From Armatimonadota bacterium (lineage in GTDB: Bacteria; Armatimonadota; Zipacnadia; UBA1398; JAKPQA01): 64,000 bases of DNA. A model generated the notes under the pieces. That model did no database searches. It was not told where the DNA came from and saw nothing but the letters and a program-made list of their open reading frames with translations. The translations under genes and the position numbers were made by a program. The stretch lies in NCBI GenBank assembly GCA_029547025.1, contig JAKPQA010000068.1:1-64000 (forward strand), in the 5' to 3' direction. Each line of letters begins with the position of its first letter. The first letter of the stretch is position 1. Below, piece after piece: positions 3,848 to 64,000 of this stretch.

Positions 3848-4504
3848 ATGGCGATCCACGACGATTTTGGGGATATCGCTGAGTCGATCCGCGCGCGAAT
3901 GGATGTGATCGACACAACTCGGGAGTTTGCATACACCGAGTCGCGACAGATCGTGCGCGACTCGGCTGCGGCGATACGGGCGACTCACCGCGGCGACGGT
4001 GCCATGGCCGCGGAGGCTTTGGCGCGCACGGCCGAGGCGGTGCGCGTTCTCCTCGGGCGGCTCGCCGGCGAGCCCATCCTGTACGGGGCGGGCTTCGTGC
4101 AGGACGCGATCAAGGAGTATGTCGAGGCAGCAGTCACTTCGTGTCTGGAGGCCGAGGCGCCGCTTCCCTCACCCGTCGAGCTGCGGGTGCCGGAGGCTGC
4201 CTACCTCAATGGTGTGGCCGAGGCGGTCATGGAGATCCGCCGGCACATTGTTGATGAGATCCGTCTGGAACGACTGTCGGAGGCCGAACGCAAGCTCGAG
4301 CGGGCCGAGGACATCTACCATGTCCTGATGAGCTTCGACTACCCCGATGCGGTGGCCCTGGGGCTTCGGCGGCGGCTCGACACGGTACGGTCGGTACTGG
4401 AGCGCACCCGTTCCGATGTGGTGACTGCCATTCGTCAGGCGTCGCTCGAACGGAAGATGGCCTCCCTGGAGTCGCGGCTCTCGCCCTCGTCTCTCGGCGA
4501 CTAG
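3848..4504 (+). CDS. Translin-family protein
   Basis: 218 aa, all-helical, with the translin pattern: an N-terminal helix ending in the repeated Arg/Ala-rich segment, FVQDAIKEYVEA, then YLNGVAEAVMEIRRHIVDEI, and the C-terminal FDYPDAVALGLRRRLDTVR followed by LERTRSDV. Eukaryotic translins bind single-stranded nucleic acid and, with TRAX, cleave RNA; archaeal homologues are often labelled haloacid dehalogenase-like. I see no TRAX-type acidic catalytic cluster, so binding rather than cleavage is the safer guess. GGAGG at 3840-3844 precedes the ATG, 9 nt after acpS ends. Translin-family genes are uncommon in bacteria, so this may be acquired. Confidence 0.75.
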   Translation: MAIHDDFGDIAESIRARMDVIDTTREFAYTESRQIVRDSAAAIRATHRGDGAMAAEALARTAEAVRVLLGRLAGEPILYGAGFVQDAIKEYVEAAVTSCLEAEAPLPSPVELRVPEAAYLNGVAEAVMEIRRHIVDEIRLERLSEAERKLERAEDIYHVLMSFDYPDAVALGLRRRLDTVRSVLERTRSDVVTAIRQASLERKMASLESRLSPSSLGD

Positions 4505-59998: not shown

Positions 59999-62020
59999 AT
60001 GACCGCGCTGCTTGGCTCTCTCGTCCCAGTGCTTGCCCAGATGCCGCTCGCGCCGGGAGATCCGGCCCTGACGGTCTACGTGTCCGCTCAGGGCAACGAT
60101 GAATGGTCCGGCATGGTCCGCGAACCCCGTGCGGATGGTACGGACGGCCCCCTTGCGTCACTGGCGGGCGCCCGCGACGCCATCCGCGAGCGCCGGAGAC
60201 GTCATGGGGGGCCGGAGCCTGGCGGCTATGTGATTGAGGTGGCCGGCGGCACGTACTTCCTGGACGATACCTTCGTGCTGGGGCCGGACGACTCGGGCAC
60301 TGGCGCCAGTCCGGTCACGTACCGGGCGGCGGCGGGTGAGCCTGTCATCATCAGTGGCGGCCGGCCCATCGGCGACTGGCGGGAGACCGTGGTCGATGGA
60401 AAGGCGTTGTGGGCGGCACACGTACCCGGTGTCGCCGAGGGCGAATGGTGGTTCACCGAGTTGTTCGTGAATGGCGGACGGCGCGACCGAACGCGTCTGC
60501 CCGAGGAGGGGTACTATCACTTCGCCGGGTTCGTTTCCGAGGAGGAAGCGAACGCCCCGTGGAGCACCGGCCAGACCCAGATGAGGTTCGAAGGCGAGGA
60601 CCTCAAACCGTGGCGGAACCTGCCGGATGTTGACATCATCGGACTCACATTGTGGATCAGCAACCGCATGCCCATTGAGTCAGTGGACACCGAGCGGGGC
60701 ATTGTCACGTTCGGGAAGCCCAGCCGGTTCAAGCTCAACGATGACCACCAGCCGCGGGGCTGCCGGTACTGGGTCGAGAACGTGTTCGAGGCGCTGAATG
60801 CGCCGGGACAGTGGTATCTCGATCGCCCGACCGGAACGCTCTACTACATGCCGCTCCCCGGGGAGTCCGTGGACACCGTGCAGGCCATCGCGCCCCGCCT
60901 GGCCTGTGCAGTTCGCGTTGAAGGCGATCCCAACCGGGGCATTCCGGTGGAGGGTGTTACCTTCGAGGGGCTGACCTTCAGCCACACCGAGTGGCGCTAT
61001 CCGGGTGACAGTGCGGGCGATGGTCAGGCCGCGGTGAGCTGCCCGGGTGTGGTCGTTCTTCAGAGCGCGAACCACTGCACGCTGAAGGACTGCACCGTGA
61101 ACCAGTCAGGAAACTACGCGGTGGAACTACTTGGCCCGGCCGAGTCGAACGTGATCGAGGGCTGCACGTTCCACGACCTGGGCGGGGGCGGCGTGAAGCT
61201 GGGCCACGGCACGAATGGGACCACCGTGGCAGACTGCCGCATCTTCGACGGCGGCAAACTGCACCATGCGGCCGTGGGTGTGTTGATCCTGCACAGCAGC
61301 GGCAATACCGTGATCCACAACGACATCCACGATCTCTTCTACACGGGCGTATCGGTGGGCTGGACGTGGGGCTATGCACCGAGTGAGGCGAACCACAATC
61401 TGATCGCCTACAACCACATCCATCACCTCGGCAAGGGGGTCCTCAGTGATATGGGCGGGATCTACTCACTCGGGATCTCGCCAGGCACGGAGCTCCGGAA
61501 CAACCTGATCCATGATGTGGAGTCGTACAGCTACGGCGGCTGGGGGCTCTACACCGACGAGGGCAGCAGCGACATGCTGCTTGAGGACAATGTGGTCTAC
61601 CGAACCAAGACGGGGAGCTTCCACCAGCACTACGGTAGGGAGAACGTGGTCCGGAACAACATCCTCGCCTTCGCGCGGGTCGGCCAGATCCAGCGCACGC
61701 GGCAGGAGGAGCATATCTCGTTCACCTTCGAGAACAACATCGTCTACTGGACCGAAGGACCATTGCTTCACGGAAGCTGGGGCGATGACAAGTACGTGTT
61801 CGCGAGGAACGTCTACTGGCAGGCCAACGGAGAGCCATTCGACTTCGCCGGGAGGTCGCTTGAGGAGTGGCAGGCGGCCGGCATGGATGTTGACAGCATC
61901 GTCGCCGACCCGCTGTTCGTGGATCCCGAGAACGGAGACTTCACACTCAGGCCGGAGTCCCCGGCGCTCAAGCTGGGGTTCCGCCCCATCGACCTGTCGG
62001 CCGTGGGGCCGAGGAGATAG
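59999..62020 (+). CDS. Exported right-handed parallel beta-helix protein (GH141-like)
   Basis: 673 aa. A short signal ([13 protein letters not shown]) leads into [13 protein letters not shown] and [19 protein letters not shown], then [40 protein letters not shown], the opening of large beta-helix enzymes such as GH141. The helix coils are visible: [53 protein letters not shown] and so on to residue 600. Catalytic residues cannot be fixed by eye. GGAGGCCTCC lies before ATG 59999. It could cleave xylan, fucosylated pectin or related glycans. Confidence 0.75.
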
Positions 62021-62023
62021 GGA

Positions 62024-62658
62024 TCAGGTGCCCCGAGGGGCTGCCGCGAAGTGCTCGCGCAGGAACTCGCGCAGGCCATCAGAGGCAGGGTCGGCGCAGC
62101 GAGTGAGGCCAGCATGCTTCGCGATTGCCTGGTAGACGGCAGGGCTGACGCGCCTGTTGGCCGCCCGCAGGGCCGCCTCGAATGCCTCCTTGGGTTGGGC
62201 GGGTTTGGAAGTGCCGGGGGGGCAATAGGGCGCGATGGCGCGCGCCAGATCGGCCATTGACAGGCCGATCGCGTCCGCTGTTGCCGAACTGCCGAACGGC
62301 ACCCACGCCTCGAGTTCCGGGCTGATGCATAGCGCGCGCGATCGCCCCAGCCGCCCCCGTTGAGCTGCTTTTCGACGTGCCTGCAGACGGAGTCTGGGTC
62401 CCCCGGTCGGCCGGATCCGTGATAGTCGAACACCACGAGCGCCAGTCGATGGGTCCTGAGCATGCCACGGAGGATCTGGACACAGCTCGCAACTACGCCG
62501 GCATCCCTCTGGGGGTGCACTATGATATCGAAGCTGAACGGGTCCAACCCGAGCGCCTTGCGCCGGAGAGAGAGCAACGTGTCAAGCGTGGCCCGCATCT
62601 TGGAGTCTGCAGCAAGCACTACGAGGTCAGTCTGGTAGTTCTCAGAAACCTTCGTCAC
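62024..62658 (-). pseudogene. Inactivated DUF4276 (TOPRIM-like) gene
   Basis: The reading frame starts at GTG 62658, overlapping the ancestral stop of the ATPase gene as GTGA. Residues 1-110 (TDLVVLAADSKMRATLDTLL, ALVVFDYHGSGRPGDPDSVC) match DUF4276. In the CG-repeat at 62332-62340 the frame breaks (one base missing or two extra), and the continuation LCISPELEAWVPFGSSATAD is in another frame down to 62024. By my recollection the family has FDHEGSG, so FDYHGSG also lacks the conserved acidic residue. An assembly error in the CG tract is the alternative. Confidence 0.72.
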
Positions 62659-63334
62659 GCGAGTACACCGGCCGCATTCAGGAGGCTGAGGTCGACCTCG
62701 TCCTGCTACGCAGTCAGCCGCGGATGGTCTTCGCCGGCAACTATGTCCGTGTTACCATTCACGTCGCGCGCGAAACAGGGCACCTGCCCCGTTGTCGCCA
62801 TCCAGAGCAATGCAGGCGAGTGGGTCGCCAGAAGCACCTGGTGGTCCCACATGGACCTCAGACTGTCGAGGACCGTCTCAATGGCTCCTGGGTGAACGCC
62901 GTTCTCGGGCTCTTCGATCATGAACGCGCCGGCCTCGTCCCACGGATAGTACGCGAGCAGTGTCAGAGCGAGGAGACGCAGGGTGCCGTCGGAGACCAAC
63001 CACGCAGGCACGGTGAGGTCCGAGGCATACTCGACCCGCATGATGCAATGCCGGCAGTCACCCCTCACCGTCGCAGTAATGTCGCGGAGGTCACAGAGGG
63101 CAGAGCGCAAGTGCTCGATCCACTGCTCAGAGGCGTCAGGGCGCCTCCTCCGAAGGTCGCGGATAGCCCAAGCCAGGTTCGCCCCGTCATTGGCCAGGGG
63201 GCCGTCCTGGGCGGGCAGGGCCGTCTCATCTGAGCGGCGTCCAGGTGGATATAGTGGATGCCCCGAGAGAGGAGACCGCGTACCCAGTGTATCTCCGGGT
63301 ACAGCCCCTGGCGCGCGTCGTCGCCTTCCGACAC
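62655..63334 (-). pseudogene. Inactivated AAA-family (OLD/AAA_21-like) ATPase remnant
   Basis: Only the C-terminal third of an ABC/OLD-type ATPase is left. It starts directly after the neighbouring glycosidase with RGLLSRGIHYIHLDAAQM. At the G-run 63209-63211 a base is missing, and the proper sequence QDGPLANDGANLAWAIRDL continues in another frame. Then VPAWLVSDGTLRLLALTLLA, IEEPENGVHPGAIETVLDSL and VLLATHSPALL, i.e. signature, Walker B and switch. A TAG at 62708-62706 stands where Trp is expected, after which QDEVDLSLLNAAGVLA reaches the natural stop at 62655. Walker A is absent, so it cannot work. Confidence 0.8.
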
Positions 63335-63337
63335 ACC

Positions 63338-64000
63338 CTATCCCAGGGGCTTGCTGGTGAGGAGTCCGATGCCGCGGCCGAGACTCCCGACAGCACAGTA
63401 GTAGAGGTAGTAGGTATCATTCGCTGGGTTGTAGACGAGCGAGGTCTTGTGGGCGTACTGCTCATCGAGGCCGGTGGGGTGGCCGCCGGCCTTGTAGATG
63501 GGCTCGGCGCGGGCCGTCCAGTTCACCAGATCGCGCGAGAAGGCCAGCATAATGTGGGCGTGTCCGTCGGGTGCCACGCCGAAGTAGAACATGACCCAGT
63601 GGTCGCCGTGCCGATAGACCTTGGGGTCGGAGGCGAAGTTCTGGTCGTACCCGCCGGCGCGATTGCGGACGATCGGGTTGCCGGGGTAGCGGCGCCAGGC
63701 CAGCAGGTCCTCCGAGAGCGCCAGGCCGCTCTGCTCGATGGGTCCGTTGGCGGCGTTGTAGAAGTTGTAGAAGCGCCCCTCGTGTTCGACGAGCCAAGGC
63801 TGGTAGACGCAGTCGCGTTCCCACTCGGCAGCATCGGGGTCGTGGATGGAGAGGATGTATGAGTCCTTCGCTCGGCGCCACGAAAGGCCGTCATCGCTAA
63901 CCGCAACGCCCTCATAGCCCGGTCGAAGTTCGTAGCCGCCCTGGAGCGGGTAGCAGCCATACAAGGTCCAGAACCGCCCGTGGCGCCTCTTCAGCATCCG
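63338..64000 (-). CDS. Glycoside hydrolase with five-bladed propeller (GH43/GH130-like), partial
   Basis: At least 220 residues; the gene runs off the right edge of the window, so the N-terminus is missing and the ATG at 63997 may be internal. Repeats of the propeller type are seen: GYEGVAVSDDGLSWRRAKDS, YQPWLVEHEGRFYNFYNAAN, YRRYPGNPIV-like WRRYPGNPIVRN, DPKVYRHGDHWVMFYFGV, AFSRDLVNWTARAEPIYKA. This pattern of xxWxxxG and Asp before Pro occurs in GH43, GH32 and GH130 enzymes. It ends 4 bp before the ATPase remnant on the same strand. Confidence 0.78.
   Translation of the reverse strand, partial: RMLKRRHGRFWTLYGCYPLQGGYELRPGYEGVAVSDDGLSWRRAKDSYILSIHDPDAAEWERDCVYQPWLVEHEGRFYNFYNAANGPIEQSGLALSEDLLAWRRYPGNPIVRNRAGGYDQNFASDPKVYRHGDHWVMFYFGVAPDGHAHIMLAFSRDLVNWTARAEPIYKAGGHPTGLDEQYAHKTSLVYNPANDTYYLYYCAVGSLGRGIGLLTSKPLG

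Follow-up and report, generated by a model that had tools for sequence, protein, structure and literature searches.

A probable recent pseudogene of a free-standing MAD3–MAD4 ATPase–Toprim pair in an Armatimonadota bacterium

Introduction

In PARIS, as described in PMC12409363, an ATPase senses and a Toprim protein cleaves tRNA. The same paper, where it deals with systems that pair Toprim with an ABC ATPase, lists among them MADS, the eight-gene anti-phage methylation-associated defense system, and the ATPase–Toprim nature of MADS is thus already in print. The OLD family nucleases, GajA included, also combine an ABC ATPase with a Toprim domain. A candidate system of PADLOC, HEC-01 (HEC-01A ATPase plus HEC-01B), is the nearest named ATPase pair to the genes described here, with a good match for the ATPase and a marginal one for its partner.

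The window, by which we mean the whole stretch of 64,000 nucleotides that was analysed, comes from an Armatimonadota bacterium and contains the remains of two adjacent genes assigned to the MAD3 and MAD4 families. They share with MADS the same two families, in the same order, as overlapping genes, whereas MAD1, MAD2, MAD5, MAD7 and MAD8 are not found nearby, MAD2, MAD7 and MAD8 are absent from the genome, and both genes are broken. With PARIS (AriA ATPase and AriB Toprim tRNase) they share a layout in which the gene for an ABC-type ATPase precedes a separate gene for a Toprim-fold protein, but MAD4 has no AriB match by sequence and the MAD3 family is distinct from AriA. Compared with the OLD family, the same combination of domains is carried by two genes instead of one protein, and MAD4 has Asp rather than Glu at the likely first Toprim position.

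Results and Discussion

Layout of the locus

The remnant of the two genes lies on the minus strand between a glycosidase-like gene (63338–64450) and a convergent gene for 673 residues (59999–62020). The features are as follows.

63338–64000, minus strand: 3' portion of the glycosidase-like gene upstream (370 aa in full, running to 64450); right edge of the remnant
62655–63334, minus strand: MAD3 (AAA_21/ABC-type ATPase) pseudogene, with N-terminal half lost, a frame change and an in-frame stop
63203–63221, minus strand: interval of the MAD3 frame change, in which profile positions 205–237 and 233–418 lie in different frames
62814–62915, minus strand: region still readable in translation (EEPENGVHP ... 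THSP), which we take to run from Walker B to the H-switch
62706–62708, minus strand: premature TAG in MAD3, at profile position 403
62024–62658, minus strand: MAD4 (Toprim-fold partner) pseudogene, with a GTG start at 62658 within a GTGA overlap with the MAD3 stop
62332–62377, minus strand: interval of the MAD4 frame change, in which the profile pieces lie in different frames; codon-usage HMM jump at 62325/62327
59999–62020, plus strand: convergent 673-aa open reading frame, presumably a beta-helix protein; left edge of the remnant

The glycosidase-like gene, which matches Pfam GH32N/GH130 over cut-off, is complete, its best relatives aligning up to residue 369 of 370. A deletion cutting into this gene is ruled out, as its closest relatives stop at the same residue. 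The DNA ahead of the GTG at 63334 belongs to this complete gene, which ends at 63338. Its closest matches in G001 and G002, two compared genomes of the same order, lie on contigs other than those that carry the pair, so that the pair is seemingly not at the same place there. An ancestral empty site was not found, the neighbour genes never being adjacent in the relatives' loci, whose flanks extend only ∼1.5 kb. At the two neighbouring stop codons there is a 7-base inverted match, GATAGGG (62016–62022) and CCCTATC (63336–63342); beyond this match, which is at about chance level, no terminal repeats were seen around the remnant.

The MAD3 remnant

NCBIfam model NF047739 (MAD3) gives 205 bits for 62709–63215, over model positions 246–410 of 427, and 25 bits for a 54-residue piece in the other frame, over positions 211–246. 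Since both pieces fit consecutive parts of the model, they are one gene read in two frames. The larger piece also matches Pfam AAA_21 with 69 bits. A MAD3 profile of 418 positions, built from 27 intact relatives, aligns its positions 205–237 at 63203–63301 and 233–418 at 62661–63221, in another frame, whereas positions 1–204 are unmatched in the remnant and the P-loop (GPNASGK, positions 28–34) is absent.

Much of this had been anticipated in an earlier note on the same DNA. Its reading of the gene as a decayed AAA ATPase without Walker A agrees with a first piece that starts at profile position 205 of 418, and the Trp-to-TAG change that it placed at 62708–62706 falls on a column that is Trp in all 27 aligned intact proteins. 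It also proposed a one-base deletion at 63209–63211; a frame shift within ∼63203–63221 agrees with this, but does not single out the exact base. The GTGA overlap of the two genes, which it pointed out as well, is present in the sequence, and a like junction is seen in relatives. From position 240 onwards, 29 of the 31 invariant MAD3 columns are kept, the stop accounting for one of the two missing ones.

The MAD4 remnant

The partner gene is also broken, a fact overlooked in the earlier note, which treated only the ATPase gene as damaged. NCBIfam model NF047734 (MAD4) matches two pieces in two frames, with 84 bits over positions 2–104 and 63 bits over positions 109–205 of 206. In our MAD4 profile, positions 3–103 lie at 62332–62634 and positions 90–205 at 62042–62377, in another frame. 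The frame is lost at about mid-length, ahead of a conserved ELE motif and conserved lysines, and 24 of the 28 near-invariant MAD4 columns are kept in the remnant.

Decay or sequence error

There are four lesions in 1.3 kb: loss of the MAD3 N-terminal half, the MAD3 frame change, the MAD3 stop and the MAD4 frame change. In a codon-usage HMM of the full 69,845-base contig, the only mid-gene frame jump is that in MAD4; the method missed the short upstream MAD3 piece, calling 63231–63341 noncoding. The only other tight jumps, two in number and with at most 3 noncoding bases separating the frames, lie at 4501/4505 and 66427/66431 and are true gene ends with stop codons. No second, intact copy was found in the genome: MAD4 is matched nowhere else, and the next-best hit of the MAD3 profile, which scores 91 bits and lies on contig C100, seems to belong to another ATPase family.

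The source assembly is fragmented, with 369 contigs and 96% completeness, which lends something to the idea that the organism's genes are intact and that the frame changes and the stop are assembly or consensus errors; an intact copy could also lie in sequence that the assembly lacks, or be carried by other cells of the same population. The lost N-terminal half is not a matter of base calling, however, because a complete upstream gene abuts the remnant. The separateness of the four lesions, the lack of any other mid-gene frame jump in the contig and the lack of a second copy make sequence error quite unlikely. Four lesions, one of them a lost half gene, in a contig otherwise free of mid-gene frame jumps indicate real inactivation, as the earlier note had argued against a single sequencing error. 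Conserved columns are nearly all kept in both remnants, and the loss is therefore recent. We conclude that the locus very probably represents a free-standing two-gene MAD3–MAD4 module that has decayed recently.

Family assignment

By NCBIfam, the two genes are assigned to the MAD3 and MAD4 families of MADS, not to PARIS. The window pieces themselves, from broken genes and for MAD3 of half length, fall short of the curated cut-offs of 420 bits for MAD3 (205 and 25 bits) and 160 bits for MAD4 (84 and 63 bits). The intact genes of a relative, G051, reach 514.9 bits for MAD3 and 198.8 bits for MAD4, over both cut-offs, and ten other intact relatives likewise exceed that for MAD3.

The pair was also compared with other named systems. 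The best PADLOC match of the ATPase piece is HEC-01A, with 77.5 bits (142.8 and 169.7 bits for two intact stand-alone MAD3 proteins), but HEC-01B matches MAD4 only marginally, at 12.8 to 15.1 bits, and two intact MAD4 proteins from stand-alone pairs match the PADLOC model mad4 best (22 and 36 bits). Sequence models of AriB match neither the MAD4 pieces (E up to 1) nor three intact MAD4 proteins (E up to 0.01). ATPase and Toprim are separate genes in the window and in its relatives, so that the single polypeptide of OLD is not what is found here. As labels for the pair, PARIS, Gabija and DUF4276 are unsupported by NCBIfam, PADLOC and Pfam.

The earlier note had described an OLD/PARIS-like two-gene defence module. 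This description stands as regards a decayed pair of ATPase and effector, the latter with an OLD/AriB-like Toprim fold in predicted models (see below), but not as regards membership of PARIS. Its further link to an AAA/DUF4276 family is not supported: no Pfam match to DUF4276 is found, at E up to 1, for the window pieces or for the intact MAD4 proteins of L029, L086 and L111.

Relatives within the phylum

A search of 101 genomes with the 169-residue MAD3 piece gives some match at E up to 0.001 in 45 of them, the source genome included, although the majority of these matches are weak and probably belong to other ATPases. Clear relatives (>120 bits) occur in 10 genomes besides the source genome. 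Identity to the window piece is 56% in G051, 53% in G001 and 50% in G002, and all three supply the intact copy that the earlier note had suggested looking for in related strains. Across 291 genomes of the phylum, MAD3 scores at least 350 bits in 18, and the copies in G128, G267 and the window, all partial or broken, score lower; MAD4 is matched in 25 and exceeds the cut-off in 16.

Profile alignment of 21 pair loci (20 relatives and the window) shows both genes full length and open in 15. Among the others, MAD4 is cut by the contig end in G095 and has one TAG in G250, the end of MAD3 is divergent in G245, MAD3 lies in two frames in G128, and in G267 MAD3 lacks most of its first half while MAD4 is partial near the contig end. 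At the last of these loci (L084 549–1277, contig C490 of G267), MAD3 profile positions 2–33 and 209–418 are almost directly joined, in one frame.

Full-length, open genes in 15 of the 20 relatives' loci speak against the notion that truncated MAD3 and an N-terminal fragment of MAD4 are still made as short functional proteins, for example from the 134-aa open reading frame at 62706–63110 or the first half of MAD4. Coding-type codon usage does persist and most conserved sites are kept, which speaks for such proteins, but the ATP-binding half of MAD3 is gone and MAD4 is cut ahead of its ELE motif and lysines; we regard functional fragments as extremely unlikely, and return to the pseudogene as the reading of the locus.

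A FastTree phylogeny built from 101 sequences places the window MAD3 together with those of the stand-alone pairs in G001 and G002 (support 0.96). The only MAD3 from a MADS locus (L086) falls outside the 96 sequences that comprise the stand-alone pairs and the window (support 0.61), the tree being rooted with another ATPase of the source genome.

Stand-alone pairs and complete MADS

The positive control was a complete MADS carried by a Piscinibacter plasmid (L086): all eight MAD models match eight of its genes over their cut-offs, MAD6 and MAD8 being represented by their first part only, and the gene order includes MAD2-MAD3-MAD4-MAD5. When the eight L086 proteins are compared by tblastn with 21 loci from relatives and with the window's own contig, only MAD3 and MAD4 are matched, save for a generic kinase match, in which a kinase gene of the own contig resembles the kinase part of MAD6. 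This gene, the sole MAD6-like match of the contig, lies at the contig end (L025 6553–7846; contig 68552–69845) and runs into a long PE-rich repeat (EPEPVPEPEPVP...).

MAD1 and MAD5 were not found in the own contig, to which their search was confined, and MAD2, MAD7 and MAD8 have no match in the genome. Among the 25 pair-bearing genomes of the phylum, none has MAD2 over cut-off. Four of the 25 (G014, G041, G102 and G128) have both MAD7-like and MAD8-like genes, all on contigs other than that of the pair and below the cut-offs. The remnant could in principle be what is left of a complete eight-gene MADS otherwise deleted here, since MAD3 and MAD4 adjoin in L086 too. The missing MAD2, MAD7 and MAD8, the nearest relatives with the pair alone, the pair-bearing genomes of the phylum without MAD2 and the grouping of the window MAD3 with the pairs of G001 and G002 all make such a leftover very unlikely. 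Intact pairs stand alone both in relatives and in many phyla, and the remnant is therefore read as a recent pseudogene of a free-standing ATPase–Toprim pair that MADS also contains.

The wider distribution was assessed from a scan of one genome per species, which yielded 459 confirmed MAD3 relatives. The best 80 were analysed, a choice that biases the set to intact MAD3; flanks were at most 8 kb, several reaching contig ends, and matches to MADS proteins were counted from 60 bits up. Above this score MAD1, MAD2, MAD5, MAD7 and MAD8 are found in none of these best 80 loci, which come from many phyla, and a MAD6-like kinase is found in one (L162, 67 bits). Of the same 80 loci, 67 have an intact MAD4 beside MAD3; among the remaining 13, MAD4 carries a frameshift in 2, is partial in 4, is missing from 4 and runs into a contig end in 3. 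Automatic classification had put 65 loci under intact, 3 under stop, 2 under frameshift, 3 under partial, 4 under absent and 3 under contig end; L154 and L157 were re-read as intact, their stop being the terminal one, and L148 as partial, which leaves 67 intact. In 10 of the 77 evaluable loci (L102, L106, L121, L124, L147, L148, L149, L160, L164 and L170), MAD3 thus looks intact while its MAD4 neighbour is missing, partial or frameshifted, and the effector MAD4 may be lost first.

Genomes covering 40 of the 80 loci were searched for MAD2, which exceeds its cut-off in 1 of 40, the genome of L162. In this Archangiaceae genome, MAD1-MAD2-MAD5-MAD6-MAD7-MAD8 stand in a row (L191 10–12207; contig C107 of G305), MAD3 and MAD4 lying neither between MAD2 and MAD5 nor on the remainder of the 18.7-kb stretch, and a MAD3–MAD4 pair is found on a different contig (L162 8001–9868). 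A MADS core without the pair, and the pair on another contig, show that MAD3–MAD4 can be separate from the other MADS genes. A search of 369 genomes of one class for MAD2 at E up to 1e-150 gave none, a search result that is no proof of absence. The pair has no match in 50,697 phage records, and viral contigs give two weak matches, at 25% identity.

We lean towards the view that MAD3–MAD4 is an independent, widespread two-gene ATPase–Toprim defence module, a split OLD in its own right, and that MADS is a composite into which this module has been incorporated. If so, the NCBIfam MAD3 and MAD4 names mislabel most of their members, MADS cores without the pair exist (as at L191), and turnover of the pair is fast, with one of its dead copies in the window.

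Predicted folds and putative active site

AlphaFold2 models were made of the intact G051 proteins (pLDDT 95.4 for MAD4 and 91.4 for MAD3); the Toprim-fold test was done on the model of an intact relative, L094, and not on the broken window copy. The MAD4 model matches the C-terminal Toprim regions of OLD proteins with Z scores of 8.5–9.6, from 9.6 for 6nk8 (182 residues, rmsd 4.7) to 8.5 for Thermus OLD. It also matches an uncharacterised archaeal protein (2p62, Z 9.2) and AriB of PARIS (8ux9, Z 8.8, 170 residues, rmsd 4.6), chain A of 8ux9 being taken as AriB from its length and chain B being named AriA. These matches are modest (Z 8–10), unrelated folds appearing in the same list from ∼7.9 down. 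Foldseek gives no match below 1e-3 for the MAD4 model, with three OLD entries ranked first, and the MAD4 sequence has no match among solved structures at E up to 10. For the MAD3 model, Z scores reach 20.6 for SMC/Rad50 heads, ∼19–20 for PtuA and 18.4 for Thermus (Ts) OLD. In these models, then, MAD4 has a predicted OLD/AriB-like Toprim fold and MAD3 a predicted SMC/OLD/PtuA-like ATPase fold.

The Class 2 OLD site, as described in PMC6755086, consists of a Toprim Glu, a DxD, a T-x-E pair and a Lys. In 47 MAD4 proteins, D75, E114, K155 and K160 are invariant (47/47), and E116 (45/47), D15 (44/47) and E77 (31/47) are conserved to differing degrees. When residues are matched to OLD by their order in the sequence, MAD4 appears likely to have a two-metal nuclease site with an altered first acid, the position of the invariant Toprim Glu being Asp in 44 of the 47 proteins. 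This substitution makes the catalytic chemistry of MAD4 uncertain.

Proposed mechanism and significance

By analogy with these systems, MAD3, as an SMC/OLD-type ABC ATPase, may act as sensor and scaffold, and MAD4, encoded separately and combining a Toprim fold with conserved lysines and acidic residues, as the effector that MAD3 would hold in check or position. Once infection is sensed, MAD4 would cleave nucleic acid, either DNA or a cellular RNA, in the manner of AriA and AriB in PARIS. MAD3 without its P-loop half cannot bind ATP, and in the window genome the module should neither sense nor cleave.

The window remnant is a recent pseudogene of an ordinary kind, another defence locus that has decayed, and it is the free-standing pair that is moderately interesting. 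The MAD3 and MAD4 families usually occur without the rest of MADS and thus offer a testable two-gene system, while the eight-gene MADS, whose division of labour is poorly understood, splits into at least two modules. A stand-alone MAD3–MAD4 pair is the subject of no paper found in the open-access literature, which is weak evidence given that most subscription papers lie outside this scope. There is also a warning here, in that curated protein names imply MADS where none exists. The NCBIfam 'equivalog' models for MAD3 and MAD4 give stand-alone pairs scores above the cut-offs (L029 3287–5175 and other loci), and automatic annotation would therefore name a MADS that is absent.
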